NCBI RefSeq assembly: GCF_040958095.1
Contig: NC_091175.1
Span: 23,829,121-23,893,120, forward strand
DNA length: 64,000 bases
Direction of reading: 5' to 3'
DNA from: Procambarus clarkii
Taxonomy: Eukaryota; Arthropoda; Malacostraca; Decapoda; Cambaridae
Every line of letters starts with the position of its first letter. The stretch's first letter is position 1. Positions 13,576-63,300 of the stretch are shown here, one piece after another. A program made the translations under genes and the position numbers. The notes beneath the pieces were generated by a model, which was not told where the DNA came from, did no database searches, and worked only from the letters and a program-made list of their open reading frames with translations.

Positions 13576-14290
<715 letters not shown>

Positions 14291-21300: not shown

Positions 21301-24300
21301 TTCCTTCATTCTGTGACCACTGGTACAGACACTTCCTTCATTCTGTGACCACTGGTACAGACACTTCCTTCATTCTGTGACCACTGGTACAGACGCTTCC
21401 TTCATTCTGTGACCACTGGTACAGACACCTTCCTTCATTCTGTGACCACTGGTACAGACACCTTCCTTCATTCTGTGACCACTGGTACAGACGCTTCCTT
21501 CATTCTGTGACCACTGGTACAGACACCTTCCTTCATTCTGTGACCACTGGTACAGACACCTTCCTTCATTCTGTGACCACTGGTACAGACACTTCCTTCA
21601 TTCTGTGACCACTGGTACAGACGCTTCCTTCATTCTGTGACCACTGGTACAGACGCTTCCTTCATTCTGTGACCACTGGTACAGACTCTTCCTTCAATCT
21701 GTGAGCGCTGGTGCAGACACTTCCTTCAATCTGTGAGCTCTGGTACAAACACTTCCTTCATTCTGTGAGCCTCTCCATCAGGGACACCGAAGGCGTCAAA
21801 ATACACATTTATCACCAGTCTAACTTATCCTTCCCAAATTTTGTTTGTGAAGAGAGTGTGTGAATCACAGACAAAATTTTATCTGTGTAGAGAAGCGTCG
21901 TCCACTCCTGTGTGTCATCTTAGCTCGAGAAGAGTGAGGTTATTGTTGACTAAACAACACACTAGAAGATGAAGAGACGACGGCGTTTTGGTCCCGTTCT
22001 GGACCATTATCAAGTCGATTGACCATTATGACGTCTACCATCACAATCCTTCCGTACAAACGTGGTCGTCTCTTCATCTTGTAGTGTGTGGTTTGGTCAA
22101 CACTTCCTCAGCCACCTTATTGTGACTCAACATCTGTGTGAGGTTATTGATGCTCTGCCGGGCATCAATAATCTCGGTGATGTTTGTATTTTCTTGTTTT
22201 CTTGTGGGAATAATGGTTTGGGTTCAATGTCTAATGCTTACTTGTTTTTTTTTTACACTCGATACTACCACCATCACCACAATTTTCACTATCGCCGTAT
22301 CCACTACCACAACTACTATTACTGTCATCACTATTAATACAATCAATATAATTTCCATCAACATCAACCACACTATCATCTCTACCGATCTCGTCACCAT
22401 CACTACCACCAACACCACAACCTTTACTACCATCTCGCTACCATTACCACCACCATTATCACAACCAACTGAACATCTTCCTACAACTCACCATCTCACT
22501 ACCATCACCAACTCGCTATATCATTACCATCACCATCTCACCACATCACTATCATTACCACTATACCATCACACGGCATCGTTACATCACCTTCCAACCT
22601 GCACCACCACCGCTATACACCGCCACACTACCACAACATATCTACAGTCGTGTGCATTGCTCAGTACGAGTCTGGCTTCAACACCAAGGCTCTTAACGTC
22701 AACAGCAACGGCAGTAAGGACTACGGCATCTTCCAGCTCAACAACCAGTACTGGTGCTTGGACAGCAGGGGCGGCAAGAATGTCTGCAAGATGGCGTGCT
22801 CAAGTAAGAGTGTTATTCTTTTGGTGTGGGCTTCAGGAGATAGGTTCGGTGTGATATCAACTTTTAGGTCTTTCTCTCTCCATCCGTACCCAACCACTTG
22901 GGGTGGACAGTAGAGCGACGGTCTCGCTTCATGCAGGTCGGCGTTCAATCCCCGACCATCCACGTTGTTGGGCACCATTCCTTTCCCCCCGTCCCATCCC
23001 AAATCCTTATCCTGACCCCTTCCAAGTGCTATATAGTCCTAATGACTTGGCCCTTTCCCCTGATAGTTCAATTCAATTCTCTCTATCCGTTTCGTGGAGA
23101 CTTTGTCTCCAATTGTGTATGTTGTGTCTGGTCTCCTGTTCCCTCCGTCTAGTTTCATTACCTTACATTTACTTGGGTTGAACTCTAGTAACCATTAGTT
23201 GGACCAGTCCATCAATTTGCCTAGGTCATCTTGTAGCCTCTTGCTATCTTCGTCGGCCATAATCCTCCTCATAATATTTGCATCATCAGCAAATATTGAG
23301 AGGAACTAATCTATTCCCCCCAGAAGATCATTTACATATACCAGAAACTGGATAGCTCCAAGGACTGAACCCTATAGGACTCCACTGGCAAAACATCCTC
23401 ACTCTGAAACCTCACCCCTCACAGTGACACGTTGTCTTCTGTTACTTATGTACTTCCTTATCCAATGAAGCACATTCCTTTTTACTGCTGCCTGAATCTC
23501 CAGCTTGTTCACTATTCTCTTATTGGGTACTGTGCCAAAGGCTTTCAGGCAATTAAAAATATGTAGTCTGCCCACCCAATCTTTCTTGCCTGCTCACACA
23601 ATTCAGTTAATCCTATGAGGCAAGATTTGCTAGCCCTGAACACATGCTGATGATGTGTTATAAATTTCTTTCGCTCCAGATGTTCAAGTAGTTTTTTTCG
23701 CAAACTCCTCTTCATTACCTTGCATGGTATGCAAGTTAAGGACACTAGCCTGTTGCTCAGTGCCTCCTGTCTTTCACCATTTTTGTTTATCGGGAATACA
23801 TTAGCCGTCTTCCAAATTTTTGCCAGTTCTCCTGTTACCAGTTATTTGTTATACACCAAATATAGAGAGCAGCATGCATAGAATTATGCAACTTCTTTTA
23901 GTATACATTGTGAAATTTTAGTATCCATGGTGATATTACAGACCTACAGCCTTTGTCACATCCATCTCAAGCAAATGCTTCCTTACTCCCCGCTGGTAGT
24001 TTCAAATACCTCCAAAGGTGCCTTGTTAGATATTCCTTCCCTTATCTCCGGAACTTCTCCTTGCTGTGAATTTATACATCACATTGTGTTGTATAAATTC
24101 TTCAATTTATGAATCACAACGTGTGATATATAAATTGAAGAAACCACTTATAAATCCGAAAATTAAGCTTCACTATAAATCATTACGGAAAATATGTAAA
24201 TGAATGAATAATGAAGTGATTTCGAAATCAAACTCATTGTCAGATTACAGTAATATTAAATTTATGGGTGCTTGAAGTTATGTGTCTCAAGCTCACTGGC

Positions 24301-30048: not shown

Positions 30049-30911
30049 TAGGTTGACTGGTTTAGTAGTTACTAGGGAGGATGCTATTAAACAAACAATA
30101 AAACTCAAGCCAAACAAGTTTCCATGGTCGAATGAGGTGTTTGCCAAGATGCTTAAATAATGCAAAGATGAAATTTGCGAGCCATTGTCTTCCATATTTA
30201 ATAACTCATTAGAGTAAGCCAGAGTGCTGGAGTCATGTAAGGTTGCTAATGCGATAAAAAATTTCAAGAAAAAGAGAAAGATCACTTGTGTATATTATAG
30301 ACCAACTAGCTTTACATCTATTGTGGGAAAATTGCTTGAATCGATAATTGCAAGAGCCAATCGTCTTCATCTTGAACAAATATATGATTCACAACATGGT
30401 TTTACTACTGGCCTTTCATGTTTAACAAATTTGTTATCATTCTATTCAAGCTTGATTGAGGCAGATGATAGTGAAAAGGTTTGTGACGTTCAGTGCCTTG
30501 ACTCAAGCAAAACTTTTGATAGTGCCACATGGACAGTTGATTAAAAATATAAAGGCTCACTGCATTGGGGGTACTATATTAAGTTAGATCTGTGCATGGT
30601 TATACTAAAGGAACAAATAGTTAGAATAATTAAAATTAAGAAAGTTGGAAAACTGTTGTAAGTGGAGTGTCTCAAGGCTCTGTTCTGGGACCTCTTTTCA
30701 TAATATAAAATTATTTAGATTCACATCAATGTACAAAAAAAACAATGCATAAATATTCGAAATAATGCATATAAAAACATTGGGATTTATTTATTGAGGA
30801 GTTAGTAATCAAATACCTAGTGTTATTCTTCAACTATATCTTGCTTTCGTTAGGTCCCATTTAGATTATGCAGTTCTGACTGTTCCGTTTAAGCAGATCT
30901 TGGAGGTCCTT

Positions 30912-31604
30912 TGTGACGGTAAAGCGTTGGTGTTCGGCTGTTTCAAAAGCTAGGGGCAGGGCCTCGTCACATTAGAGAGAAAAAAAAGAGAAAAGCTGGA
31001 ACTTTCGTCTGTGGTAAGGTAATGGGAAGACACACAAAACACAAGTAAATTTAACAATGAAATTTTAATTACTTTAGAAAAACAAGACATGAATAAAGTT
31101 AAGCACATAAAATATAAAAGACAAGTCAACAAACAAAATAATATGAATAATCACTGGCAAATGAAAAGTTACGTTAAGACAAGTGAGTTACAGTGATAGC
31201 AAAATAAATATGAATGGAGCTGGAATATTGGCTTCGAGCTGCCACCTCCCTTAGTACACGAAAGCCAAGGCTTAGTCTACCAGCGAGAGATGTCAACTGC
31301 AAGGAGCACTGAGATATTCTGACAATACTGGGCCACTGCAGCCTAGACATCAACTTGTGGCGGAGGGCGGAGGGCAGATGCGACGGGACACCAGCCAATC
31401 AGCGACAGGCAGGCAAAGGACAAGCAGTTTGCTGATTTACGGTGGCGGTAGCTAGCAGGTGTCACTGTGTGCTGGGTACGTTAAGCTCTCTGGGCAAAAC
31501 GTTTGGCGATACTTGCTGGACGTATCTTCTATATTATCTTTTGTTTTTACGTACTTTGTAGGGAAGAGCAGGCTCAATCTCTCTTGAAAGAGATTATCGT
31601 CACA
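30912..31604 (-). repeat. 3' LTR of copy 1
   Basis: 693 bp, TGTGACGG to GTCACA in plus orientation. It holds a short minus-strand 74-codon open frame that is also present in the other LTR and is a chance ORF. Confidence 0.95.
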
Positions 31605-32250
31605 ACTCTCCCTCGAAGCCTGCGGTTCTGGAAGAAGTACGTCGTCATGTGGTGGAGTTGCTTCTACTTCATAAACTCTGGAGAGGGAGTCGGCTATGAT
31701 GTTGTCAGACCCCTGGTATAGCGGATCTCCAGGTTGAATTTCTGCAGTTATCAAGCCCATCGTAGAAGACGTTGAGTGTAGAAGTGGGCTTGCTGCAGGA
31801 AGTGTAGGGTGTTGTGGTCCGTGTTGATGGTAGACCGAGCACTTTTCAGGTATGGAGCAAAGTGCTGGAGATTCAGGATGATGGAGAGTAGCTCCTTGCC
31901 AATTGTTCCGTTGTTCCTTGTAGCTGTGGTCGCTGACAGGTGTATTCTCCTCGCATCGTTGTTGTACTAGGTCACCCCCGATGCCGGTACCACTGGCGGC
32001 GACATGGAGGATGAAGGGCTTGGTAATATCTGACGAGGTGAGAGTAGAATTAGAATATGGCAAAGGAGCACTATTATGGTCCTGAAAATGGTTGGGAAGA
32101 TCAATAAGGATTTCCGAATTAGAAAGCGCTGACTCCTTGTCAGTGCTTTCGGGAGGAGAAGCAGGGAAGGTCTCACTGTGGATGTATGGTTCTGTAAAGG
32201 CAGAGTAATTAAGCATGACAGTGGGAGGAGTACCGTTATATAGCTTCAGG
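31605..32250 (-). pseudogene. RNase H remnant of LTR copy 1 after the RT deletion
   Basis: It starts in the post-integrase spacer (TFPASPPEST) and jumps near 32060 to SSDITKPFILHVAASGTG, the RNase H start. Copy 2 has HVDTSGTG there, so the first catalytic Asp is Ala here. Frameshifts scramble the middle, then GSDNIIADSLSRVYEVE returns in frame. It is not a working RNase H. Confidence 0.85.
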
Positions 32251-32342
32251 AGGTTGACGTGGCACAGCTGGGGCTTCCGCCGCCTATCTGGAGTCTCTAG
32301 AACGTAGTTATGGTTGTTTCTGCACTTCGTGATGCGGTAGGG

Positions 32343-33785
32343 TCATGAAAACCTGTTTTGTAAAGGAGAACCTGGGATAGGGAAGTAAGCAAGTACGAAG
32401 TCTCCCGGCTTAAATTTTCTTACTTTGCTGGTCTGGTCGTAATGAGTCTTCATCCTCTCCTGTGCTTTCAATAGATTATCTTGGGCAAAACTGTGGACCC
32501 TCTCTAGAATGAGTTGTAGGTTTTGAAGAAACTGGGGCACATTCTGATGCTCACTGAAGGTGGCATCACGTAGAGAGTCTTTGAAAGCCTTGGGGGGAGT
32601 ATGGCACTTACGTCCGTAGAGCATCTCATAAGGAGATACTCCTAGGGACTCATTGGGAAGACTTCTATATATGCACATTATCAGGTCAATTTGCTTATCC
32701 CAATCCTTAGAGGTTTCATTACAAAACTTCTTCAGGAGTGCTTTAATAGTCTGATGACTACGCTCAAGAGAACCCTGTGAAGCAGGATGATAGGAGCTGG
32801 ACAATACCTGTGTGATGTTGAACTCTTCCAGTGTCCTCTTAAAGAGATCACTGGTGAAGTTGGTGCCACAGTCGCTCTGAACCTCCCTGGGAAATCCATA
32901 CTGGGTGAAGATCTTCAATAAGTGCTTCACAACCGTAGCAGCCGTAATATTCTTTACTGGAACTGCTATGGGGAATCTGGTGGTAGGACACAGGATGGTT
33001 AAGATATAGGCGTTACCTGAACTGGTCCGAGGTAAAGGACCAACACAGTCTATAATAAGTCTGTGGAAAGGTTCCACAGGCACCTGTATGGGAATCAGTG
33101 GCGCTCTGGGAATAGAGATGTTCGGTTTACCTGCCATCTGACATGTATGACACTGTTTGACGTACTGTTTGACGCTATTTACCATACCTGGCCAGTAGTA
33201 GTCTTGACGGATTCCATGGTAGGTCTTGTTGAATCCGTAGTGGGAGAGTGCTCCGTGGGCCCGGTGTAGAATAGTGGGCCGCAGGCTGGCAGGAATCACA
33301 AGTTGTTCGACGTTGGCCCAATCGTCCTCCTCCTTCAGTTTACTGGGTCTATATCTGCGGTAGAGCAACTCGTTCTCTAGGAAGAACCCAGGAATACTGT
33401 CGGGTTGAGTCTCAGCCTGGAAAAATAATGGTGTCAAGGTAAGATCTTCCCTCAGTAACTTACGGAACTCCAACTTGGTCAGATTCGGGGGTAGTTTCTG
33501 AGGGTCTTGAGGGACAGCGGTAGCAGTAGAGTCAGCTGGCTGTGGTCGTGCAGCTTGTGCACGGGTGGTCACTAAAACCGGAGGAGAAACTTCATCACTC
33601 TCTTGAACCTTTGCTGGAACATACTCAAAAATAGGATTATCCATCACAGAGGTACACACCTGGGGTTTGTCCATGACGATCAGGTTGGTCGGTTGCAGGT
33701 CTTCTGCCAAGTCGTTGCCCAGAAGTTGCTCTCCAGGCATGGGAAAAGGCTTTTCCCTGATGGCGACTTGGACTTCTCCGTTCAC
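32343..33785 (-). pseudogene. Integrase of LTR copy 1 (uninterrupted 480 codons)
   Basis: This open stretch starts in the end of protease (QLLGNDLAEDLQ), then a spacer, then integrase. The HHCC zinc finger is visible (HRAHGALSHYGFNK, then CHTCQMAG). The catalytic core shows LIIDCVGPLP (D), QSDCGTNFTS (D) and QGSLERSHQ (E). The C-terminal GDFVLAYFPIPGSP is a GPF/GPY-like module. The frame ends at a TGA where copy 2 has a Gly codon, inside the C-terminal module. The integrase core itself is intact, unusually well kept for an element lacking RT. Confidence 0.88.
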
Positions 33786-33869
33786 GAAGGGACAATCCAG
33801 GTGGACTCTGGCGAGAGGATAAGGAGTGGTAGCAGTGAGGTCAGTGATGAAGACAGTTTCTCCGGTGTT

Positions 33870-35597
33870 TACTAGTTGTGTTTACTAGTTGTGTTTTTGC
33901 GGGGGTTGAGCTTTGCTCTTTCGGCCCGCCTCTCAACTGTCAATCAACTGTATACTAACTACTAGTTGTTTTTTTTTCCACACCACACACACACCCCAGG
34001 AAGCAGCCCGTGACAGCTGACTAACTCCCAGGTACCTATTTACTGCTAGGTAACAGGGGCACTTAGGGTGAAAGAAACTTTGCCCATTTGTTTCTGCCTC
34101 GTGCGGGAATCGAACCCGCGCCACAGAATTACGAATCCTGCGCGCTAACCACCAGGCTACGAGGCCCCTGTAGTAGGCGATGTAGGGCACAGCCGACTTC
34201 AAAATAATCGATTGTAGAGCCGCTGTGTCCCTCAAGATCTTCAATTTGAAACTTCCCTCCGGATTTGAACTGTTGGCAGAGACAGTTCCAGTATACAGGT
34301 GTTTACTGAAAAGAGAAAGATCATTAACATGAACACCAACATTCATCATAGGCTTACCGGACTTAGGAGGAGTTGGTTTGGGTTTTGGTGATTCGGTGGT
34401 TCCTTTGTATTGAGACTTACCACATTTATCTATGGTATGTCCATAGAGTCTACAATACTTACAGTACAATTGCGAGCCAGCTTGATCGGTACTCACTTTC
34501 TCGTAACTGTACCACGACTTCTTACTGGAAGATGGTTCTGGTGTCAGCCGGTGGATGAGGCTGTAAGTGTCAGCCGACTTAGCACACTTCAGGTAGTCGG
34601 TTTCTTCTTTATCTGCTAAATATAGACGGACAGGAGGCGGCACACGCCTCAAGAATTCTTCAACTAGCATGAGGTTGACGAGTTCTGCAAAGGTAGAGAC
34701 ATGTGCTGCTTCCAGCCATTTCATAAAATATCTCCTTTTGGTTTTAGCAAACTCTAGAAAGGTAGTGGTACTTGCCTTCAGGTGGTCACGGAATTTCCTT
34801 CGATAACTTTCGGTGGAGAGAAGGTAGGCGTCCAACACTGCTTGTTTCAGAGTCTGGTAGTCATTCTCAGACGCCAAAGTACTGAGTGTAACTGCAGCTC
34901 TACCTGTAAGATGTACTCTGAGAAGGGTGGCCCATTGGTCGGCAGGCCAACTAAGTTGATTAGCAAGGGTTTCAAAGGTGGTGAAAAACACGTCAACTTC
35001 TGTTTCTACGAATGATGGCATTAACTTACTTGCATGTGATATATTAAAACTGACGGGAAGATTGGCGGTAGCTTGCTGGCGTTGAGCGAGGTGTGAAGTT
35101 TCCAACGCGAATTCTCGTTGACGACATTCCATAGTCAGGGATGCTTGTTGTTTGTCATGTTCGTGTAGCATCACCAATTGGCGTTGTTTTGTTTCAAGCT
35201 GTATTCGTTCCCGCTCACGGAGTAATGCAATCTCACGTTCTTGTTTTTCCTTTCATATGGCAGCTGCTTCCCTTTGTTGTTCGAGGGCTTCCCTTTGCTG
35301 CTCGCGTTCGATCTTGGCCAGCTCTAGTTTGAGTTTCATCGTTGCCAAATCAGTTTTATCTGCAATAAAGTAAGTTTCGTGAGTTTCAGAGTCTATCTTA
35401 CCTTGCTCTAAGAGATGATCCAGTAACAGGTTGTGTATTTCATTTTTGTTGGCTTGGTAGGGATCTTCTAGTTGATACTCATGTGCAAGAGTGTGTAATT
35501 CAGTCCTCTTGGCACGACTTAAAGTCCCTATTTCACCTGCTGGATCTGCACGGAAAGCTTGGAGACGAAACATTGTGAAAATAGCAAATAAATGCAC
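33870..35597 (-). pseudogene. gag and protease remnant of LTR copy 1
   Basis: The minus-strand ORF starts at 35597 (MFRLQAFRADPAGEIG), runs to a stop near 35250 and continues in the same frame at 35177. It has a Lys/Glu/Gln-rich coiled-coil segment, a capsid-like region (SFVETEVDVFFTTFETL) and a CCHC knuckle CKYCRLYGHTIDKC near 34470-34430. The protease start LRDTAALQSI lies near 34240, where the family-typical DTG is DTA. The protease is then split by inserted repeats at about 33870-34168. Gag packages the element RNA. One nonsense codon and the insertion inactivate this copy. Confidence 0.88.
33960..34168 (-). mobile_element. SINE (type 2 head) inserted in protease of LTR copy 1
   Basis: Minus strand: GGCCTCGTAGCCTGGTGGTT head, anticodon-like loop TTCGTAA, box B GGTTCGATTCC, then the shared body to the GGCTGCTTCCTGGGG segment. 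The usual tail is missing, and a short piece (33895-33950) of the dispersed repeat seen at about 28100 abuts it. Because the host LTRs are about 99% alike, this SINE moved recently. Confidence 0.88.
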
Positions 35598-36475
35598 AAC
35601 GAATATACTGTTGTGATATAGTGAATGTCAGAAACAGGACAACGTGGCAACTGGTACCTATCCTGTGGAATCTTTAACAATTAAAGTTAATTACAAGATG
35701 TTAAATAATTAATTAAATCAAGGAAATCTTGTACCCGGTACTCATGTAAGAGGATAAGGGCAAGAAAATCCTACTAAACAAGCGAAACTGAGTTTCTAAA
35801 ACAAATGAAACAGTTAATTGTCTCAAAAGTAAAATTGGTAGTCCAAGAATGTAGGCATACCTTGCCGAGTCTCTATAGGACATAAGCAAGTTTTCCCACT
35901 GAAATTAATATGATACTTACAGAATTAGCGAACTTTTGTGCTCTGAAAAAGAAAACTAATTCCCTACCAATGTAGGTATCATCATCTCTGACCGACGTGT
36001 AGGGGTGCGAGGTGTCAACTGGTGACGAGAACTGCTGCTGAGGTCCCAATTCAGCAACTAAAGTTCGTGCTAGAGGAACTATGGCCCTCTTTATCCTCCT
36101 ACTGTCAGATTGCAGAAGATTAGGTGCACTTGACCCGAGGACAGACCACAGTACCACGGTACCAATATGATGATCTGTCGAAAATATGAGAAATATCCTA
36201 GGGACAAAAGATGGTAAACACGAGTAATAACACGGAGGGAGAGATGATCAATTAAGAGAATGACTGAGGCCTACAGTCACCACGTAATCCAAAGTTGTCT
36301 CACCTTCACCATATGCTACTCTCGGAATGCACAATACACACAGCACCATATAAAAATAAAATTGAATATTGAAAATAGTAAAATGCTACGTTACCAAAGC
36401 CAAATACGCTTACCATAAATTTACTACTTGGCACCAGTACCTGAGTGAAGCTCCTAGGGCAGGCCCCCACTTTTA

Positions 36476-37170
36476 TGTGACGGTAGAGCGTTGGTGTTCG
36501 GCTGTTTCAAAAGCTAGGGGCAGGGCCTCGTCACATAAGAGAGAAAAAAAAAAGAGAAAAGCTGGAACTTTCGTCTGTGGTAAGGTAATGGGAAGACACA
36601 CAAAACACAAGTAAATTTAACAATGAAATTTTAATTACTTTAGAAAAACAAGACATGAATAAAGTTAAGCACATAAAATATAAAAGACAAGTCAACAAAC
36701 AAAATAATATGAATAATCACTGGCAAATGAAAAGTTACGTTAAGAAAAGTGAGTTACAGTGATAGCAAAATAAATATGAATGGAGCTGGAATATTGGCTT
36801 CGAGCTGCCACCTCCCTTAGTACACGAAAGCCAAGGCTTAGTCTACCAGCGAGAGATGTCAACTGCAAGGAGCACTGAGATATTCTGACAATACTGGGCC
36901 ACTGCAGCCTAGACATCAACTTGTGGCGGAGGGCGGAGGGCAGGTGCGACGGGACACCAGCCAATCAGCGACAGGCAGGCAAAGGACAAGCAGTTTGCTG
37001 ATTTACGGTGGCGGTAGCTAGCAGGTGTCACTGTGTGCTGGGTACGTTTTGCTCTCTGGGCAAAACGTTTGGCGATACTTGCTGGACGTATCTTCTATAT
37101 TATCTTTTGTTTTTACGTACTTTGTAGGGAAGAGCAGGCTCAATCTCTCTTGAAAGAGATTATCATCACA
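36476..37170 (-). repeat. 5' LTR of copy 1
   Basis: 695 bp. On the minus strand it starts TGTGATGATAATC and ends CGTCACA. Downstream (minus strand, from 36475) comes TAAAAG and then TGGGGGCCTGCCC, a candidate primer binding site starting with TGG. Confidence 0.95.
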
Positions 37171-37600
37171 CCTTCCTGTGAAGGAAAGTCTTCAATTCAT
37201 TTTATGAGTCTTCCCTTGACACCCATGCAAGCAAGCTCCCCCAGGATCGCAATCCCCTGTGATTTGTCGAAGATTCCTTTGATATCAACAAACACTTAGT
37301 ACTTACCTGTGTCATTAGTTTCATAATTGACTATTCAATTTGTTGTGCTCCGTCCTTTAAAAAATCCGCTGACCCCTTCCTTAGCCTGCCTATTTTGTTC
37401 AACAGTCGGTTTAGGATGATCCTTTCAAGCATCTTGCATGTGCATGACACGAGACTGATAGGGCTGTAATTGCCTGGGTCATTGGGTTTCGGTAGGGGAA
37501 CAATTACTTCGTGTTTCCCTTGCGCGGGCAGCAATCTCCCTAGAAATATACTCATAGGCAAATAGATGGTGACAACCAGAATTCAGACAAGACAACAAAA
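37171..37600 (-). pseudogene. LINE RT fragment forming the insertion site of LTR copy 1
   Basis: Minus strand: VIVPLPKPNDPGNYSPISLV, then TCKMLERIILNRLLNKIG, a frameshift, then FVDIKGIFDKSQG (motif A-like). The reading continues at 30911-30880 on the far side of the LTR element (GRT, then a CLNGT-like segment), which proves the LTR element jumped into this LINE. Confidence 0.8.
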
Positions 37601-40185: not shown

Positions 40186-40249
40186 AGTTCACACTAGCCA
40201 ACCAACCTTTCGTCCTACTCTCTTTCTAAGCACCAGCAAGAACTTCTTG

Positions 40250-40818
40250 GTCATGGTCTGTCTTTTGCTACTTCCCCTGGCCCACGCTGTGGCATTGATC
40301 TCATTAGTTCCTTTGAGAGGTTTGTCAATTCTAACTCTAGTACTCTTTCGGGCCTATCTGCCTTTAGAGGGGCCCTTATCCCCGTTCTTGACAGCTTGTT
40401 TTCTAAAAATCACCACCTTCCTCGTCGCTTCCAGCTTGCCCTTGCCTCCCTAAAATCTAACAACTCTATTCTTATCCTTCCTTCCGACAAAGGCAATTCG
40501 GTGGTTGTCCTTGACCGTGAGGACTACCTCCGAAAAACAGATGTCTTGCCCTCTGACTCTCGCACTTATGCTCCTCTGACTTCTAACCCTTTGGATCGCC
40601 TCAAAACTTCCTTTAACCGCAAACTAAGACAGCTCTCTAGTCTGTGTCCTCCTGACTTTGATCTCATTAAACGTTTCTGTGTCATCTGCCCTTCTCTTCC
40701 TTATTTCTATGGTCTTCCTAAGACTCATAAACCTGGTGTTCCTCTTCGTCCTATCATTTCTTCACGGGGCTCTGTCAGCTATCCTCTTGCCTCCTGGTTC
40801 GCTAAAACCCTGACACCT
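40250..40818 (+). pseudogene. Penelope-like RT, N-terminal part (fingers)
   Basis: In one open frame: GPRCGIDLISSFERFVNS, SDKGNSVVVLDREDY, YFYGLPKTHKPGVPL and RPIISSRGSVSYPLASW. These are the conserved pre-palm motifs of Penelope RT. The frame is cut at TLTP by the insertion. Confidence 0.88.
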
Positions 40819-42536
40819 ATTATAGTCTTGTGGGTTGGTGGTGTTGTCGTCGTTGATCCTTCTCTATGGACAACCAACCCACAACTCGGTAGAGTGCTTA
40901 TACCTCACTAGGAGATCACCCTTGGCGCTTCTGGCTCTTGGAGAGGGGCTCAACGTCCCACGTTTAGGGGATGCAACTCCAACACTTAGCCTCGTTGTCA
41001 CGTGCACACACCCACTCGAGCCGCTGTGACTCCCCACTCTCTCCTTAGGTGATATGATCTCCTCAATCCCCTTTTGACTTATTAGTATTACCTTCTACCC
41101 TGTCCACAGCAGTGGTTCTTGGTTCTTTCTCTCTTCTTCTGTACTATTTCATGGGAAGCCTCACTAGGACAAGGGCAAACACCAGCAAATTGGAATACAT
41201 TTACTGGACAAAGCACATACACAATACATACACACATATAATAATAATGAATCCTATACTCTATACTATTACAATCAGGTTGCTCTCCAACATCATCAGA
41301 ACTCTATCATCAGCTTATCAAGTGGTATTCTATCTTCTGATTCCCCACCTGATACTATCTACCTCTTCAAGTTGATCAAGTCTACATACACTGTTGCACC
41401 ATCAGCAAGAGAATATATATATGTATCTATAAATGTGTACAAAGAAAATCAGCATGTGAATGCAATAACATATATCAGTATAAATGTTCCTTGATACACA
41501 ACAATGATCAATCGATCACTCTATCAACCCTAGAACACATACATCTGTAGGTAATCCAGCCTACGACTGTAACTCTAAACTTCAGTATAAAACACTCCTT
41601 GACATAAGAATGCCAACAATCACTCACCTCTCACTGCGTCTTGCACGCTAATGACAACCAAACACTATCAACTCCCTACAAGTAATCCACCAGAACTTCC
41701 CATCCACCTCTGGAAGCTCACTACCCTGATCTTCAGGTTCTTCTGGGCTTAACTACCAGTATCCTCTGCAGCTCCTTCAGGCTGCTACCATGAAGTTTCT
41801 TTGAGCAACTACGGTGCTTCACCCTTCTGCTAGGGTCCTCCACAGCTCTCTTGGCTGCTACACCATGAAGTTCCCTCGACCAACTATGGTGCTTCACCAC
41901 CTCTACAGAAGCACATGACACTCCTCTTCACTGCTTCTCCTCACAGCTCGAGGTCCTCTGTTCCACTACCTTGGAGTCTCATCAACTACTCCTTCTGTGC
42001 TGGCTTCGAAGTTCTCAGCAACTTCTTCCCCAAAGACAAACCACAGATTGTCTAGTCGAGGGCGCTCCTCCCTCTGACGAAGCTTGGTCAGAGCGCTGCC
42101 ACGGCCCACGATAATGTCTCTGAGCGGCTTAATACTCTTCTCATCGACCAGGACTTGAGACCACAACGTTCCCAGCTCGATTCTACAGCTGGCACGTCTA
42201 CACACTTCTCTTCTCTTCGAGATATATCACTAGGGGTTCCCTTCTGACGGGAGCTCAACGGAGCGTGGCTTTCCCCCTGCAATGTCTGGCCCCAAGTGAG
42301 GTCAAAGCCCTCCAGAAGCGAGCCTCACGCCTCCAGCAAAATGTCCACATCTCCTAGCCATTCATTTATCTGTTTTCTTCTTCACTGCCCATAATCTCAA
42401 ATTGTTCATCATATCCAAGCAACCATTTTACATCTGTGTTATCGCCTCTATATATCTTAGACCTTCTGGTTAGGTCAGGCTTGCTGAATAACTCTCAAGG
42501 GGGAGACTCGTTTCTCCTGTAGGCTGAGATCATAAC
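40819..42536. mobile_element. Unclassified 1.7-kb insertion in the Penelope RT
   Basis: It is bounded by ACACCT on both sides (40813-40818 and 42537-42542), and removing it rejoins the Penelope frame. It has no recognisable protein domain, no clear terminal inverted repeat and no LTR-like repeat. A local tandem duplication is near 41775-41900 (ggctgctaccatgaagtt and ggctgctacaccatgaagtt). Possibly a solo LTR or non-autonomous DNA element. Confidence 0.75.
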
Positions 42537-42545
42537 ACACCTTAC

Positions 42546-43756
42546 CTTGGCACTTTTTCCCCTGCCCACCTTCGTCACTCTCAGGACTTCATAGAAAGAC
42601 TGCGCCTGCAGCCCTTTTGTAAGATGCTTAATCTTGATGTCGACTCTCTGTTCACTAATGTTCCGCTCGATGACGTTCTCTCTTTACTCAGACAGAAGGC
42701 GTCAGAGGGTCTCCTTCCTCTCCCGCTTCCCACTGACGTTTTCCTCGATCTCATTAGATTCTGTGTTGACTCTAACTCTTTCTCTTTCAACGGTAAATAT
42801 TACACTCAAACTTTCGGTGTCGCTATAGGTTTCCCTCTCTCCCCTGTTCTTGCTAATTTCTACATGGAATACTTCGAAACTGTTCTTCTTCCTTCTATTG
42901 ATACTCGTCCCTCTCTCTGGCTTCGCTATGTTGATGACATTTTTGCTTTATGGCCTCATGACCTCAATCATTTCCAGCCTTTCCTCACCTCTCTTAATCT
43001 GGCTCCTATCCATTTCAAAGTTGAGTGGGAATCTAATTCCCTCCTTCCTTTTCTTGATGTTCATGTTCACCGCTCTGTGGCTGGGTTCTCTTTCTCTGTC
43101 TACCGTAAACCCATGCACAGTGGCATGTACATTCACTTCTTTTCCTACCATCCTCCTTCTGTTAAGAAAAGTGTCCTCGTCTCTCTCTTCCTCCGCGCTC
43201 TACGCATCAGTGACCCTCAGTTTCTTGATTCTGAAATTGCCTTTATCTACAAATCATTCTCTCGCCGTGGTTATCCTTTGCATTTCATCAACTGTGCCTA
43301 CTCTCAAGCTAAACGAAATTTCTGTCATCCTAAACCTGCTTCCAACACTAGTAGCACTGTACTATGCCTTCCCTTCATATCTGAACTCAAAACTTTTACC
43401 AATACCTTTCGTCCTCTTGACATTAAACTCGCCTTTCGACAAACTAACACACTTCGTAGCAATCTAGTTCACACTGCTCCTCCTGCTTCTAATGCTGCTG
43501 GTGTCTACTCTATTTCCTGTTCATCTTGTCCTCTCCAATACTTTGGCGAAACTGGCCGTACACTGAATGACAGACTTAAAGAACACAAGAGAAGTGTTAA
43601 GTCTGCAGACACTAACAATGCTCTCTTCTGCCATGTGAGGGATTCTAATCATCCCATTGATTGGTCTTCCTCCAAAATAATCTTTCCTGCCTCTACTCTA
43701 CACAGACGCCGTCTTGTAGAATCGGCTCTTATACACAATGTACCCAACATGAACTT
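42546..43756 (+). pseudogene. Penelope-like RT palm and GIY-YIG endonuclease
   Basis: About 390 codons are open. Motif A is LNLDVDSLFTNVPL; motif B is FGVAIGFPLSPVLANFYMEY, with Phe where Ser is usual; motif C is LRYVDDIFALW. FLDVHVHR and VYRKPMHS follow. Near residue 300 the GIY-YIG nuclease reads GVYSISCSSC, then YFGETGRTLNDRLKEHKRS. The C terminus is cut at NVPNMNL. The inverted neighbour at 39557-39766 supplies the family's normal end. Confidence 0.9.
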
Positions 43757-44479
43757 GAGATCGGCAGAAGCCTTCACCCCAACAGCTGGAGTCCTCCAAG
43801 GTCATGCCTGAGCCCGGTCCTCTTCAACATTTTCGTAAATGATCTGCCCCAACCGGAATACAGGGACACCATCATCGTCCAATTTGCCGACGATGTAACT
43901 CATGTAATTGTCATGATCTGGGAGATATAACCTCCATATACATATCTTAAGGTAGTAACCTTCACCATCACTGGAACACATAGCCTGTCCACATATCATA
44001 CAAGGTTCTAGGGGAGTAAAAAGCTAGCAACAAATATTCCAGTTTACTGGCATTAAGAACCATCCACAACAGTAGCAATAACTAAAAACACTACTAATTT
44101 CACACACACATATCACCAATACTCTATATCCAGCTTCTCAACAACTGGGCATGATACATCAAATACAGGTCTGCAAACTGCATTAATCAACACTAGCTGA
44201 CACCAGGAACTTTGCCTAGCACAGTGGAACACTAGTGCCTATATGCTGCTAATACCAACAAGGATGGTGGTGTGTCAACCAATAACACATGAGGTAAGAG
44301 GAATAATATCACAAACAGCACCTTGGCATTTCACAAGTTCCTCAAAATATATCACCTCACTAAGACACATAAGATAAGTGTGAGGTTAGTCTGCGTTTTT
44401 CATCCAGCCACTGTCAATGTGGTGCCCTCGGGAAGTGGAGATATTTGAGATGTATATATATCTCGAAGTCTCTACTTCT

Positions 44480-53941: not shown

Positions 53942-54592
53942 AACTAGGCACTCCACAAGGAGGAGTACTAAGTCCTACCTTGTTTAATATTCTAATTAAT
54001 GTCTTACTAAAATCAATCCCAACTAGTCCGGTAAACATCACTATCAGCTATGCAGATGACATCCTTGTACATACTAAATCCCAGCACGAAATGCAAACAG
54101 TTTTAAATTGTATACATACAGCCTGTGAAAGCCTTGGTCTTGTAATCAACGCTGCTAAAACTAAGGTATTTAACAGACAAATTGGCAACCGCAAAAGTGG
54201 ACCACGAAAACTTAATATAGATAACATACCAAAAGACTATGTCTCCTCTTTCAAATACCTTGGTGTCTCTGTCCCTTGTACCTCAACTGCAGTCAATAAG
54301 TTACATCAACAGTGCAGAGACAGACAAGGCTCTCAGAACTGTAGTGGGGTACAGCCTGAAATATGGTGTTATTAATATTAGAATAGCAAAAATGATGTAT
54401 TTAGCGTATATAAGGTCTCTGATAGACTATCATGCACCAGCTTTGGTCCTGCAGAATGGCAAAAACATTGATAGACTGGAAAAAATGCAAAATGAAGCAC
54501 TCAGAATTATACTTGACTGTCCTATAACTACCAAAGTTCTCAACATGCGGAAAGAATTAAATATATTTAGCATTAGAGATAGAATATTTTAA
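53942..54592 (+). pseudogene. LINE RT palm and thumb fragment
   Basis: Motif B TPQGGVLSPTLFN, motif C ISYADDILVHTKS, then GLVINAAKTKVFNRQ. The thumb in a second frame reads YIRSLIDYHAPALVLQNGKN, then KMQNEALRIILDCP. At least one frameshift falls near 54300. Confidence 0.88.
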
Positions 54593-54901
54593 ATTAATCT
54601 TATGATGGGACTAAAGCTTCGGCGTGATAACAAGAACAACATTGTGTCAGTTGCACTGTTAGAACACATACGAAATGGAACTAACGAGTTTAAATGGATT
54701 CAAAGAACAGCCACTCATATTAAAATGATGGGACTGCGCGATGTATATACAGATGAAAGAGTACAGCACTTCCTTCCACCCTAGCACCCTTTTGACATCC
54801 TGACCCCTGCATACCCCACCAAGAAACTAATCACAAACAACCCTCATGCTCAGCTTGCTGCTAAATTAAGCACCATAGAGCACATTCACAATATACAAGC
54901 T

Positions 54902-55723
54902 GAAAACAACATAGCACAGACCATATACACTGACGGATCACTCAATGCAGCTACAGGGAGGGCAGGAAGTGCTCATCAACTCGATGGCAGCACAATTCAA
55001 AGGAATATCCGAATTAGTAACTGGGCATCCACAATGCAAGCTGAGTTGGTAGCAATACTGGTAGCACTCGAAATTATTGACAACACTGAAGTAGACAGCT
55101 TAATTATTTCTGACTCCCTTTCCTCACTACGAGCAATAAACAGTTTGCAATCAAGTAATAACGTGCTTGTCTTGGAAGCTAGACGTAGATATATAAGAAT
55201 ACTTAGCAAGAGGGTAAATATAAAAATGTTATGGATTCCTTCTCACATTGACCTGCAGGAACAAGTTCACGCCCTTGCTAAGGCTGCAGTAAATAAAGAC
55301 AGTATTGAACGGAATCTTGAGTTATCAAATAGGTCCCTTAAAAGTGTCATTAGACGAGAACTCCTGGATGAATTTGAAGAAAGTAGAACAGTGCAAACTG
55401 GAACTAGCAGGTCCATTGTTCATCACAATGAAATGTGTGAAGTAAAACATGTGTATGGGGCAAGTAACAAAGTCAGTAGACTAACAAATGTTGTCACAGC
55501 TTGTATAAGACTTGGCTACAAATATCTAGATGAAGTAAAGTGTAAAGTGTGTGGACAAAAACAGGGACACACACTCGAACACTATATCTTGGATTGTAGT
55601 AAAATTGAGCCATTTAGAGATAAATCTAAGCTCACTCTGTATGATATGGCAACTTATCTTATTACCATGGATAAACTATCTGAAATCCTTGCACTGTATC
55701 CACATTTCGCTTCCAGTAGATAA
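54902..55723 (+). pseudogene. LINE RNase H domain and C-terminal Cys motif
   Basis: IYTDGSLNAATG (first Asp, near 54925), MQAELVAILVALEI (Glu), IISDSLSSLRAI (second Asp) and WIPSHIDLQEQ. The fourth acidic residue, normally in a NExAD-like segment, is replaced: the segment reads QVHALAKAA. The C terminus has CKVCGQKQGHTLEHYILDC, a CX2C-H-C pattern usual for these LINEs. 55034-55723 is open for 229 codons. Confidence 0.85.
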
Positions 55724-57149: not shown

Positions 57150-57908
57150 TTCACATTAGTTACTGGGAGACCAAACACACACACATTAGTTACGGGGAGA
57201 CCAAACACTTACACATTAGTCACTGGGAGACCAAACACTTACACATTAGTTACTGGGATACCAAACACCCACACATTAGTCACTGGGAGACCAAACACTC
57301 ACACATTAGTTATTGGGAGACCAAACACTTACACATTAGTCACTGCGAGACCAAACACTTACATATTAGTTACTGGGAGACCAAACACCCACACATTAGT
57401 CACTGGGAGACCAAACACTTACACATTAGTTACTGGGATACCAAACACCCACACATTAGTCACTGGGAGACCAAACACTTACACATTAGTCACTGCGAGA
57501 CCAAACACTTACATATTAGTTACTGGGAGACCAAACACCCACACATTAGTCACTGGGAGACCAAACACTCACACATTAGTTATTGGGAGACCAAACACTT
57601 ACATATTAGTTACTGGGAGACCAAACACTTGCACATTAGTTACTGGGAGACCAAACACTCAGTCATTAGTCACTGGGAGAACAAACACTCACACATTAGT
57701 TACTGAGAGACCAAACACCCACACATTAGTTACTGGGAGACCAAACACTTACACATTAGTTACTGGGATACCAAACACTCACACATTAGTTACTGGGAGA
57801 CCAAACACTTACACATTAGTTACTGGGAGACCAAACACCCACACATTAGTTACTGGGAGACAAAACACTCACATATTAGTTACTGGGAGACCAAACACCA
57901 CACATGTA
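57150..57908 (+). repeat. Minisatellite, 30-bp ACACATTAGTTACTGGGAGA... unit
   Basis: 25 copies, in which TTACTGGGAGA and TCACTGGGAGA and the endings ACTT/ACCC/ACTC vary. The 30-bp period keeps all frames open (LVTGRPNTYT, ISYWETKHLH), giving a 321-codon false ORF. A 180-210 bp higher-order pattern is visible (about 57230-57420 resembles 57410-57600). Confidence 0.95.
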
Positions 57909-58007
57909 GATGTGCACATCACTTAATCTTTCAATTTTATTGTGACATCTTCAGGAGTACACTCTGATATAGTGAGTATAGGAGTGCACTAACATGATCT
58001 GGCAACT

Positions 58008-59630
58008 ATGAAACTCAAGCTCGAACTTGCAAAACTCGAGCGGGAGCAACAGCAAGACGTTCTCCACATGAAGGAACGCGAGGCGACCCTAAGGAAAGAA
58101 GAGCAAGAAAGAGAGGCTGCAATCAGGAAAGAAGAACAAGAAAGAGAGGCTGCCCTGGCGAAAGAAGCTCTCCAAATAAGGGAACGCGAGGCGACCCTGA
58201 GGAAAGAAGAAGCTGCAATCAGGAAAAAAGAACAAGAACGTGAGATGGCACTATTCAGAGAGCGTGAGCGAATACAGCTTGAAGCAAAACAACGTCAGCT
58301 GGAGATACAACGCGAGCATGACAAAACGCAAGCGGAGAGGGCTATAGCATGTCGTCAACAAGAACTCACGTTGGAAACTACACACCACACTCAGTGCCAA
58401 CAAGCTACCGCTAGTCTTCCCGTAAGTTTCAATGTCTCCCATGCAAGTAAGTTAATGCCACCATTCGTTGAGACAGAGATCGATGTCTTTTTCACCACTT
58501 TTGAGACCCTAGCTAATAAACTTAGCTGGCCTGCAGATCAATGGTCTACCCTTCTCAGAGTGCATCTCACAGGTAGAGCTGCAGTTACTCTCAGTACCTT
58601 AGCGTCTGAGAATGACTACCAGACCCTGAAGCAAGCAGTGTTGGACCCCTACCTTCTCTCCACCGAAAGTTACAGACGAAAATTCCGTGATTATCTAAAG
58701 GCAAGTACCACCACCTTTATAGAATTTGCCAATACAAGGAAAAGATATTTCATGAAATGGCTGGAAGCAGCACATATCTCTACATTTTCAGAACTCGTCA
58801 TCCTCATGCTAGTTGAGGAATTCTTGAGACGTGCTCCCCCTTCCATTCGTTTATATTTAGCAGACAAAGAAGAAACCGACTACATCAGATGTGCGAAGTC
58901 GGCTGACACCTACAGCCTCATCCACCGGCTTACACCAGACCCACCTTCCAGTAAGAAGTCTTGGTATAGTTATGATAAAGTGAGTGCCGATCAAGCGAGC
59001 TCTCAATTGTACTGTAAGTATTGCAAACTCTATGGACATACCATTGATAAATGTGGGAAGGCTCAATACAATGGATATGAAACTACTAAACCCAAACCGA
59101 CTCCTCCTAAGTCTGGTAAGCCTGTGATGAATGTTGGTGTTCCTGTTAATGATCTTTCTCTCTTCAGTAAACACCTGTATCCTGGAACTGTCTCTGCCAG
59201 CAGTATAGATTCGGAGGGACGTTTCGAAATGAAGATCTTGAGGGACACAGCGGCTCTTCAGTCAATAATATTGAAATCAGCTGTGCCTAACATCACCTAC
59301 ACCGGGGAAAGCGTCCTTATCACTGACCTCACTGCTACCACTCCGTATCCACTCGCCAGAGTCAACCAGGATTGTCCTTTTGTGACCGGTGAAGTCCAAG
59401 TCGCCATCAGGGAAAAGCCTTTTCCCATGTCTGCAGTGCAACTTCTCCTGGGCAACGACTTGGCAGAAGATTTGCAACCGTCCAACCTTATCATCATGGA
59501 CAAACCCCAGGTGTGTAACTCTGTAGTGGACAATCCCATCTTTAAGTATGTTTCAGCAGAGGTCCAAGAAAGTGATGAAGTTTCTCCTCCGGTTTTGGTG
59601 ACCACCCGTGCACAAGCTGCACGCCCGTAA
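58008..59630 (+). pseudogene. gag and protease of LTR copy 2
   Basis: 540 codons. Residues 1-130 are a Glu/Lys/Arg/Gln-rich coiled coil with repeated KEEQEREAA-type units. Residues 140-300 are capsid-like (FVETEIDVFFTTFETLANKL, FMKWLEAAHIS). A CCHC knuckle CKYCKLYGHTIDKC lies near residue 345. The protease is near residues 410-490: ILRDTAALQSII, where the family's DTG/DSG triad is DTA, and LLLGNDLAEDL as the second conserved block. The N terminus is truncated relative to copy 1. A TAA ends the frame where copy 1 has a Gln codon; the integrase follows in the same frame. Confidence 0.88.
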
Positions 59631-59696
59631 CCAGCTGACTCTACTGCAACCGCTGTCCCTCAAGACCATCAGAATCTACCACCGAATCTTACTAGT

Positions 59697-61512
59697 TTGG
59701 AGTTTCGTAAGTTACAGAGGGAGGATCCATCGTTAACACTATTATTCTTCCAGGCTGAGACTCAACCTGACAGTATCCCTGGGTTCTTCCTGGAGAAGCA
59801 GTTGCTCTACCGCAGGTACAGACCCAATAAGCTGGAGGATGACGATTGGGCAAATGTCGAACAACTAGTGGTTCCCACCAGCCTACGGCCCGATATTCTA
59901 CACCTGGTCCACGGAGTTCTTTCTCACTATGGTTTTAACAAAACCTACCACGGAATCAGACAAGACTACTACTGGCCAGGTATGGTAAAAGACGGCAAAA
60001 GTTACGTGCAACAGTGTCATACATGTCAGATGGCAGGTAAACCTAACATCTCTATTCCAAAGGCACCGTTGAATCCTATCCCAGTGCCTTCGGAACCTTT
60101 CCACAGGCTCATCATAGACTGTGTGGGTCCTTTACCCCAGACCAGTACTGGCAACTCCTATATACTAACTATCCTGTGTCCTACCACCAGATTTCCCATA
60201 GCAGTTCCAGTAAAGAACATTACGGCTGCTACTGTGGTGAAACAACTATTGAAGATCTTCACCCAGTATGGATTTCCACGAGAGGTTCAAAGTGACTGTG
60301 GCACCAACTTCACCAGTGATCTCTTCAAGAAGACACTGGAAGAGTTCAACATCACACAGGTATTGCCCAGCCCCTATCATCCTGCTTCACAGGGTTCTCT
60401 TGAACGTAGTCATCAGACTATTAAAGCACTCCTAAAGAAATTTTGCAATGAAACCTTGAAGGACTGGGATAAACAACTTGCCCTCATTATGTGCATTTTC
60501 AGAGGTCTCCCCAATGAGTCTCTAGGAGTATCTCCTTATGCTCTACGCTCTACGATGCTCTACAGACGTAAGTGCCGTACTCCTCTCAAAGCTTTCAAAG
60601 ACTCTCTACATAATGCCACCTTCAGTGACCCTCAGAATGTGCCCCAGTTTCTTCAAAACTTAAAACACATTCTAGAGAGAGTACGTAAATTTGCTAATGA
60701 CAATCTGTTGAAAGCTCAGGAGAGGATGAAGACTCATTTTGACCAAAGCAGCAAACTAAGGAAATTTAAAGCAGGAGACTTCGTGTTGGCATATTTTCCT
60801 ATCCCAGGTTCTCCATGGCAAAACAAGTTTTCAGGACCCTACCGCATCAAGGAGTGCAGAAACAACCACAACTACGTTCTTGAGACTCCAGATAGGCGGT
60901 GGAAAACCCAGTTGTGCCACGTCAACCTCCTGAAGCTGTATCAAGGTACTCCCCCCACTGTGTTGGTATCATTATCCACATTTAAAGGTCCATGCCTCCA
61001 CAGTGAGACCTTCCCTGCTTCTCCTCCCGAAAGCACTAACACTGAGTCAGTGCCTTCCAACTCGGAAATCCTTAATGATCTTCATACCTATTTGCAGGAC
61101 AGTAATAGTGCTCCTCTCATCAGAATCTTCAAGGAACATCAGAAGTTGTTCAGCGATGATCCACAGGAGTGTAATGTGGTTCAGCACGACCTCCAGCTAC
61201 TCCCTGACACCCGGTCGATTCGTCAACCTTTCTACCGAATCAGCACGAGCAAAAAGGAAGTTATGCGTGCTGAGGTACAGTACTTCCTGGATCATGAGCT
61301 GGCCACCCCTTGTGAGTCCCCTTGGGCCTCACCCTGTATCTTGGTGCCGAAACCGCACGGTAAAGTGAGGCTGTGTACCGACTACAGGAAATTGAATCTT
61401 GTGACTGTCAAGGATGCTTACCCATTACCTAGAATAGATGACATTCTTGACGCCATTGGTAATGCTCGGTATTCATCCAAATTAGACTTACTCAAGGGAT
61501 ACTACCAAGTGT
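59697..61512 (+). pseudogene. Integrase followed by RT N-terminal half, LTR copy 2
   Basis: A continuous frame. The zinc finger is HLVHGVLSHYGFNK, then CHTCQMAG, near residues 67-110. The core has LIIDCVGPLPQ (D), VQSDCGTNFTS (D) and SQGSLERSHQTIK (E), at about residues 135-250. A GPF/GPY-like C-terminal module reads GDFVLAYFPIPGSP, then FSGPYRIKE. After a spacer RT begins: QPFYRIST, ESPWASPCILVPKPHGKVRL, CTDYRKLNLVTV and motif A SKLDLLKGYYQV, where the frame breaks. Integrase and RT in one frame in this order is direct evidence for IN-RT polarity. Confidence 0.9.
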
Positions 61513-62544
61513 TTGACAAAGCGAGCTAAGGAAATATCTGCCTTCACCACTCCTTTTGGCCTTTACAGATATGAACGCCCTCCATTTGGGCTATGTAATG
61601 CCCTGGCCACCTTCCAGCGAGCTGTCAACCGCGTCATCCATGGCTTAGATCACACCTACGCCTACTTGGATGATATCGTTGTGGCAACTAACACCTGGAA
61701 CAAACATCTGCTCCAGCTGCAACGATTGTTAGCCAAGCTCCTGACAGCCGGCCTCACCATCAACTTGGGCAAGTCCACCTTTGCAAAAGGTAAAGTGCGT
61801 TATCTTGGTCATGAGATAGGGGGTGGCAGCCTAGCTCCATTAAACATTCATACCCAAGCCATCCAGCATTACCCACAGCCTACCACCAGGAAGCAGCTCC
61901 TGCGCTTCCTTGGTCTTGCCTTCTACTACCGTAGGTTTGTGAAGAATTTTAGTACGGTAGCGACACCATTGATCACTTTAACCAGCTCAAAGCAATGGTA
62001 TCATTGGACCATTCAGCAAACCATTGCTATTGAACAACTTAAATCCCTGCTCTGTTCTAATCCTATTCTCGCCTCGCCAGATATCACGAAGCCTTTCATC
62101 CTCCATGTCGACACCAGTGGTACCGGCATCGGGGGCGTCCTGATGCAACAACGAGGCGAGGAGGTTCTACCTGTTAGCTACTACAGCTACAAGTTAAAAC
62201 CTCACCAGAAGAACTACAGCACTATCGTAAAGGAACTTCTCTCCCTCGTCCTGAACTTACAGCACTTTGAATCGTACCTACAAAGTGCTCGGTCTTCCAC
62301 CATCTACTCGGACCACAATCCCCTACGCTTCCTGCAGCAAGCTCAATTCAACAATCAACGACTTCTACGATGGGCTTTGTATCTGCAGAATTTCAACCTG
62401 GAGATCTTCTACATCAAGGGTTCTGACAACATCATAGCAGACGCCCTCTCCAGAGTCTATGAGGTAGAGACAGCTACACCTACCACTCTACCATCTGAAG
62501 ACGAAACTTTACCCATTAGAGCAGGCTTTGGGGGAGAGTTGTGA
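61513..62544 (+). pseudogene. RT C-terminal half and RNase H, LTR copy 2
   Basis: 343 open codons in the frame shifted from the integrase. RT motif B FGLCNALATFQRAVNRV; motif C YAYLDDIVVAT; then LRFLGLAFYYRRFVKNFS. RNase H has HVDTSGTGIGGVLMQQ (D), TIVKELLSLV (E), TIYSDHNPLRF (D) and NIIADALSRVYEV (D), so all four acidic residues are present. The stop overlaps the 3' LTR start. Confidence 0.9.
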
Positions 62545-63243
62545 CGATAATCTCTTTCAAGAGAGATTGAGCCTGCTCTTCTCTACATAAAGTTACTTAT
62601 ATATATATAGCAATAAGATGCTACCTTCAAGATACGTCTACCAGTAGCACAAAACGTTTTGACCAGGAGGCAAACGTACCCTAAACTCCTCCCTACTCCA
62701 CACTCCCTCCATGCCGGCTCCGTCATCAACCAGCAAACTACCATTGCCAGCATGCCTGCTTCTGATTGGTGACCCGCCGACTGCACACCTGCACCTCAGC
62801 GCCCACTACTTAGTCGATGTCTGGGCTTGAACCAGTCATTGAAGTTAGAATATCTTGTGCTCTCAAACTGTGAACAACTAACTGATATACGATCTGTCTA
62901 TCAGGTGGATGTTTCTCAGCTAGCGCTTTATTCTCAGCACCTGTTTAATCACTTTTCTGTCTTTATATTATAGAGTAACGTCATTCCTGTTTTTAATTTT
63001 TATGTTATATTTTTTGACTTGTTTGTTTGCACTGTACATAGCCAAGGATTTGTCTTTTGTTCATAATTTGTTTTCAATATTAATTTTAGTTTCATTGTTC
63101 ATACTATGTGTTTTCCGTGTCTTCCCTTAATTTACCACAGACAACAGCCAAGCAGTCTATCTTTTTTTTTGTAAATGTGACTAGGCATTGACACCAGCCA
63201 TTAGGAGGACTGCCGAACATCTACACTCCTACACTTTCCCGTC

Positions 63244-63246
<3 letters not shown>
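62540..63246 (+). repeat. 3' LTR of copy 2
   Basis: 707 bp, TGTGACGATAATC to CCCGTCACA. The first 50 bp match the LTR of copy 1 closely (TCTCTTTCAAGAGAGATTGA). The middle is much more diverged, so the copies belong to different subfamilies. A (TA)n tract begins directly after it. Confidence 0.9.

Positions 63247-63300
<54 letters not shown>

Follow-up and report, generated by a model that had tools for sequence, protein, structure and literature searches.

The question raised by this locus is how a retrotransposon could multiply after losing its own reverse transcriptase (RT). The locus is a window of 64,000 nucleotides from the genome of the crayfish Procambarus clarkii (contig NC_091175.1). 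It contains two members of a Ty3/gypsy-type family of long terminal repeat (LTR) retrotransposons in which integrase (IN) precedes RT and RNase H (RH). The first is a decayed copy that has RT, and the second lacks it. The preferred reading, given a probability of about 0.78 from sequence comparison, is a Gmr1-like element accompanied by an RT-less offshoot that would replicate on RT and RH supplied in trans, with its own Gag, protease (PR), and IN acting partly in cis.

The RT-Less Element

The second window element is composed of the following parts.

30908-37174 (-), the whole RT-less element, with both LTRs and AAGG on either side
36476-37170 (-), 5' LTR, 695 bases
33936-35252 (-), Gag, matching PF02023
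32343-33881 (-), end of the protease and most of IN; a stop cuts the GPY module
32050-32075 (-), in-frame junction at the missing RT, from alignment to the first element
30912-31604 (-), 3' LTR, 693 bases

The two LTRs are 98.6% identical. Approximately 930 bases are absent between the IN-RT spacer and RH, and the reading frame is kept. The protease is interrupted by an insertion of ~300 bp (~33869-34164, -), which we would guess to be a tRNA-derived short interspersed element.

A query of the 4.03-Gb genome with IN yielded 2391 candidates, 40 of them scored matches, and 20 of those 40 were fetched. These first 20 loci come from the 40 best matches to the first window element and are therefore biased towards its subfamily. 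The RT-less junction is also present in 3 of them (L017, L020, and L021). The RT-less group has the traits of a non-autonomous element: it is without an essential enzyme, has multiplied, and carries LTRs, with a target duplication read for one RT-less copy.

Copy Numbers of RT-Less and RT-Bearing Forms

Matches to the RT-deleted, in-frame form outnumber those to the intact version of that site. The pattern for the RT-less junction (25 positions, at most 1 mismatch) occurs at 2390 genome places and the intact RT site at 739, with no places for the control of either (a reversed pattern for the junction); the junction pattern is degenerate and the intact-site pattern is not, so the 2390:739 ratio is rough. 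Among the 100 places listed for each pattern, the RT-less junction is scattered over contigs C1-C3 and the pattern of one RT-less subfamily, A (below), over C1-C4. Four RT-less junctions at C1:8582371-8600493 are spaced ~6.04 kb apart, as element copies in a tandem array would be.

A codon-degenerate RT motif covering all subfamilies occurs at 3058 places, which indicates that further RT-bearing subfamilies exist. Six RT variants were read. Four have a related IN, and L075 and L077 match in RT only. The RT-bearing copy L079 is open over the whole stretch read.

Integrase Phylogeny and Subfamilies

RT-less and RT-bearing copies were sampled by different patterns, and three IN trees were built. 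The first kept 38 of 42 rows, leaving out L032, L039, L042, and L043, which have too little IN. The second added 8 of 10 copies for 46 rows (L068 and L072 were dropped), and the third added 4 of 6 for 50 rows (no IN could be aligned in L075 and L077). L012 and L019 stop short of the RT site and were labelled unknown.

In the 46-row tree, 13 RT-less copies form one clade with support of 100 and contain the nested subfamilies A, B, and C. The D-type RT-less copies lie apart from it. After the addition of four more RT-bearing rows in the 50-row tree, the A/B/C clade still consists of RT-less rows only, again with support of 100. The view that this clade is without any RT-bearing copies was nevertheless overturned by a group of 129 RT-bearing places with C-type IN. 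This group was counted with an A/B/C-like flank pattern, which found 2480 RT-less places vs 129 RT-bearing; among the 98 of the 129 with letters shown, nearly all are of one sequence type. For subfamily A, 2631 RT-less places were found vs 4 RT-bearing, at no more than 2 mismatches for both, and all 4 carry 2 mismatches. The subfamily A count exceeds 2390 because the mismatch tolerance is wider.

Selection on Integrase and the State of RNase H

The IN of the RT-less lineage appears to be under purifying selection, judged from changes on the internal branches of A and B. These branches carry 17:7:73 changes by codon position, with 72 silent, 25 replacement, and 0 to stop. The A and B tips carry 32:27:47 (45 silent, 61 replacement, 3 to stop), and the 24 RT-bearing tips carry 156:139:166 (143 silent, 318 replacement, 13 to stop). 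The neutral expectation is 2.52 replacements per silent change. All counts are from parsimony on non-independent changes, which makes the Fisher value a guide only.

Among 20 RT-less copies drawn with the junction pattern, the IN core is open in 9; IN is not matched in L042 and L043, is matched in part in L032 and L039, and is 95% covered in L035. Among 10 RT-bearing copies drawn with the site pattern, none has an open core (L068, L071, L072, and L074 cover it in part). In the set fetched first, the core is open in 1 of 16 RT-bearing copies, the window copy, and in 1 of 4 RT-less copies, L017. L022 has no stop in the IN frame but has a length change. RH is broken in 14 of 16 copies fetched, mostly by frameshift, and is in frame in the D-type copies L061 and L062. 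Conservation of IN, and not of RH, suggests that IN would be needed from the element itself and that RT and RH would be shareable.

The RT-Bearing Window Element

The first window element is a decayed Ty3/gypsy LTR retrotransposon copy at ~57991-63246, with the order Gag-PR-IN-RT-RH and a 3' LTR. Its parts, including open reading frames (ORFs), are listed below with the repeat that precedes it.

57152-57905 (no strand), 30-bp minisatellite in 25 copies, ahead of the truncated element and not part of it
57993-59630 (+), ORF of Gag (N-terminus missing) and protease; coiled coil, capsid, CCHC knuckle at 59013, RDTAAL site at 59241
59631-61529 (+), ORF of IN and then the start of RT, from the ORF list
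59631-60930 (+), integrase; HHCC finger from 59910, D at 60117, D at 60294, E at 60402, GPY module at 60834
61176-61818 (+), RT, matched stretches; YLDD at 61663; split by a frameshift near 61520
61486-62544 (+), ORF of the remaining RT and RH, in another frame than the IN ORF
62080-62454 (+), RH; Pfam match 62080-62394 plus the last motif at 62431, motif starts 62107-62431
62530-62538 (+), polypurine tract GGGGGAGAG, preceding the 3' LTR
62540-63246 (+), 3' LTR with inverted ends TGTGACG/CGTCACA; (AT)26 directly after

The copy is 5'-truncated and has no 5' LTR, and its homology to full copies starts at ~57991. In L014 and L022, the 5' LTR is separated by ~1.1 kb from the point matching ~57991, and this interval includes the Gag N-terminus. 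The window copy lacks this N-terminus of full copies (MFRLQAF..., L014 leader ~3620-3840), which by eye resembles SAP; in L014:3530-5491, the stretch containing it, no Pfam family was matched. A putative primer-binding site, TGGGGGCCTGTCC, lies a few bases past the LTR and was not tied to a tRNA.

The IN motifs are a finger of H-x4-H-x29-C-x2-C and a core of D-58-D-35-E. Pfam matches Integrase_H2C2 (1.2e-19), rve (3.1e-12), and RT_RNaseH (1.2e-30), together with p58_C, the GPY-type C-terminal module, at 3.5e-4, below the model's cut-off. RVT_1 matches RT in two pieces, the first below the cut-off and the second above it. A preliminary description of the locus had placed the finger, D-D-E core, and GPY-like module of IN before RT and RH, an order that the ORFs and Pfam confirm, and its end coordinate of 63246 agrees with the end of the 3' LTR. 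Its single forward frame does not hold. The PR frame is closed by a TAA at 59628-59630 ahead of IN, and the frameshift near 61520 lies inside RT. The TAA is not family-wide, as L025, L027, and L028 read through from nucleocapsid to PR and IN, and in the second window element a glutamine codon takes its place.

Domain Order and LTRs Across the Family

All 15 fetched copies that carry both domains have IN before RT. LTR pairs are present in 11 of the 20 fetched loci and are 89.7-96.5% identical (the L016 pair is partial, 169 bases only). Target duplications of 4 bp were read as ACTT (L018), ATAT (L014 and L027), and AAGG (second window element). The family has paired LTRs, a polypurine tract, and target duplications, the traits of an LTR retrotransposon; the first window element itself has only the 3' LTR. 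The preliminary description had named a local rearrangement as a way in which its reading could fail and had called for copies with both LTRs. Rearrangement is contradicted by the constant order and the LTR pairs, and copies with both LTRs were found at the 11 loci and in the second window element.

Of the 19 elements whose outer flank could be read, 9 adjoin an (AT)n run (L011, L016, L017, L020, L022, L023, L024, L026, and the first window element at 63247-63298), a sample that contains duplicates, since L009, L010, and L013 have one common flank and that of L025 is similar. (AT)6 or longer runs make up 1.7% of the fetched loci and 0.5% of the window. These neighbors suggest a target preference for ATAT.

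Family Assignment

RT, RH, and IN of the first window element match gypsy-type Pfam models, and the best match in the PDB is Ty3 for both proteins searched (9.5e-55 for RT/RH and 1.4e-52 for IN). RVT_2, the copia-type RT model, gave no Pfam match at E<=1 in this element. A scan of viral contigs with IN found no relative.

SCAN (PF02023) is matched in the capsid of the first window element (58665-58907, +; 28.7 bits against a cut-off of 27, E 1.1e-6), in the Gag of the second (~34563-34811, -; 30.3 bits, cut-off 27), and in 4 of the 7 Gags of alignment A1. Pfam gave no SCAN match with the full window Gag ORF, the long ORF of L014, or a window piece truncated within the domain; for full-length Gag, the HMMER composition filter is presumed to act on the coiled coil. 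A PDB search with Gag returned nothing useful (one match, a coiled coil at E 9.4). An AlphaFold model of the capsid was set aside, its mean confidence (pLDDT) being 44.

The window copy has DTAA, not D(T/S)GA, at its protease active site, as do 4 of the 5 A1 rows that reach it, including the second element; L023 is out of frame there. DTAA is unusual for a retropepsin. The literal TIHG flap motif was not seen in the window protease stretch, as read from the translation.

The published sources cited here are represented by excerpts. One of these ascribes a TIHG protease flap motif to the Gmr-1 clade (PMC2577118). Another describes SCAN and the capsid of Gmr1-like elements as homologous (PMC4592553), and in frogs no elements other than Gmr were found to carry SCAN (PMC4131045). 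A 2013 report presented decapod Gmr1-like elements as the first from protostomes (PMC3587641), those of Rimicaris exoculata with RT/RH and IN in separate fragments, and a 2021 report added an annelid (PMC8220671). By its domain order and profile matches, the first window element is read as a dead copy of a Gmr1-like LTR retrotransposon with a SCAN-type capsid. The Gmr1-like reading of the preliminary description is supported by IN upstream of RT and RH, the gypsy-type enzymes, and this capsid. Its hint of novelty in a crustacean fails, given the decapod sequences in print since 2013 (PMC3587641).

Proposed Replication and Alternatives

From knowledge of the family, the RNA of an intact element would be packaged in Gag particles, copied to DNA by its own RT, and inserted by its own IN, often into AT repeats. 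RT-less elements would be copied with RT and RH supplied in trans by RT-bearing relatives, and their Gag, PR, and IN would act at least partly in cis. A stronger form of this proposal is held more tentatively, at slightly under even odds. In this form, a lineage permanently without RT, and then without RH, would have had its own Gag, protease, and IN selected for cis action, on the strength of selection measured on integrase only, and would thereby have become one of the family's most numerous forms.

Repeated descent from RT-bearing masters is the main alternative to a borrowed RT. There would then be no separate RT-less lineage. RT-bearing masters would repeatedly shed the same deletion or pass it on by template switching, and IN would have been selected only in the masters. 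Several observations weigh against the preferred reading, and some of them fit descent from masters. The RT-less copies L017, L020, L021, and L045 sit inside RT-bearing clusters with the same breakpoint, which is thus present in several clades and implies recombination or repeated deletion. At least 11 of the 129 RT-bearing places rank in the top 40 for similarity to the C-type IN of the RT-less copy L044, at 97-98% identity, and this RT-bearing subfamily with C-type IN shows that RT-bearing relatives exist at the root of the RT-less clade. The frame of the RT-bearing L079, open in the stretch read, also fits descent from masters. Beyond these, the 3058 RT motif places mean that RT-less copies do not outnumber RT overall, and the RT-less window copy is itself broken, by the protease insertion and one stop in IN. 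Descent from masters is still judged unlikely in view of the 2631 RT-less places vs 4 RT-bearing in subfamily A, the mostly third-position changes on the A and B internal branches, and an RH frameshift that looks similar across subfamilies by eye. Spread of the RT-less form by tandem or segmental DNA amplification, and not by retrotransposition, would account for the regular spacing of ~6.04 kb at C1:8582371-8600493 and for the flank common to the RT-bearing L009, L010, and L013, with L025 similar. This is very unlikely for the form as a whole, as the junction is scattered across contigs among the places listed, and the RT-less window copy has near-identical LTRs and its own AAGG duplication, the sole one read for an RT-less copy.

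The family assignment underlying the borrowed-RT reading has rivals of its own. An IN-before-RT order that arose independently of the Gmr1 clade, by a convergent domain swap, would fit the DTAA site and the lack of a literal TIHG, the motif reported for the Gmr-1 clade in the excerpt of PMC2577118, and the assignment stands on order and profiles. The SCAN-type capsid of both window elements, a reported mark of Gmr1-like Gag in the excerpts of PMC4592553 and PMC4131045, makes such a swap improbable. IN before RT is also the order of copia, and it would be produced by an element of Ty1/copia type or by local rearrangement of an ordinary gypsy element. The preliminary description had named copia placement as the outcome that would undo it; profiles, in place of a tree, gave gypsy-type Pfam matches, Ty3 as the best PDB match, and no RVT_2, and with the order found in 15 of 15 copies both forms of this explanation are counted as refuted.

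Other Features of the Window

Further features were recognized by eye, except for the tandem arrays.

950-2601 (-), 15797-16303 (-), and 53944-55723 (+), RT and RNase H fragments resembling long interspersed elements
6197-8712, 52-mer array, x49
8902-12729, 21-mer array, x182
13605-14288, CT array, x343
20875-21768, 32-mer array, x28
22473-22913 (+), ORF resembling a C-type lysozyme exon
40198-40911 and 42528-43811 (+), Penelope-like pieces of RT, with a GIY-YIG-like stretch at the end of the second

Comparison with Known Systems

The window element adds a member to the Gmr1-like elements already known from decapods. Like the Gmr1 clade (cod, tunicate, and frogs; annelid LGF3; decapod GyRex4, Gychoro2, GyMaja1, and GyLiva4), it has IN upstream of RT/RH, gypsy-type enzymes, and a SCAN-type capsid, a placement made here from order and profiles. 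Unlike that clade, the crayfish protease site reads DTAA. The R. exoculata sequences are fragments in the excerpt of the 2013 paper, whereas RT/RH and IN are contiguous here and accompanied by LTRs. The Gmr1-like order in a decapod extends the known range, and its value lies in contiguous, LTR-bounded evidence within one genome.

Which retrotransposon proteins must act in cis and which can be shared is usually asked with engineered elements. The RT-less lineage would be a natural test of this question. If IN is conserved while RT and RH are dispensable, RT can be shared and integrase cannot. Among the titles and abstract openings listed by literature searches, no LTR element was named that has lost RT alone and keeps IN under selection, which is no proof of absence.

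Non-autonomous elements that outnumber their competent partners and lack intact genes are described in the excerpt of PMC10924933. The bovine D type is an internal deletion form that outnumbers its competent counterpart, is presumed to be trans-complemented, and recombines with it, and the crayfish RT-less form would be similar in these respects. The bovine D type has no intact genes, whereas here RT and later RH were lost, and IN is open in many copies and appears to be under purifying selection. If the stronger form of the proposal is true, element lineages would divide the labor among themselves, in contrast to an empty derivative that is simply parasitic.

Plant TR-GAG, LARD, and TRIM elements are Gag-bearing or gene-less non-autonomous LTR elements that lack pol and depend on a partner's enzymes. 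A similar dependence is probable for the crayfish RT-less elements, which, unlike the plant elements, retain PR and IN.

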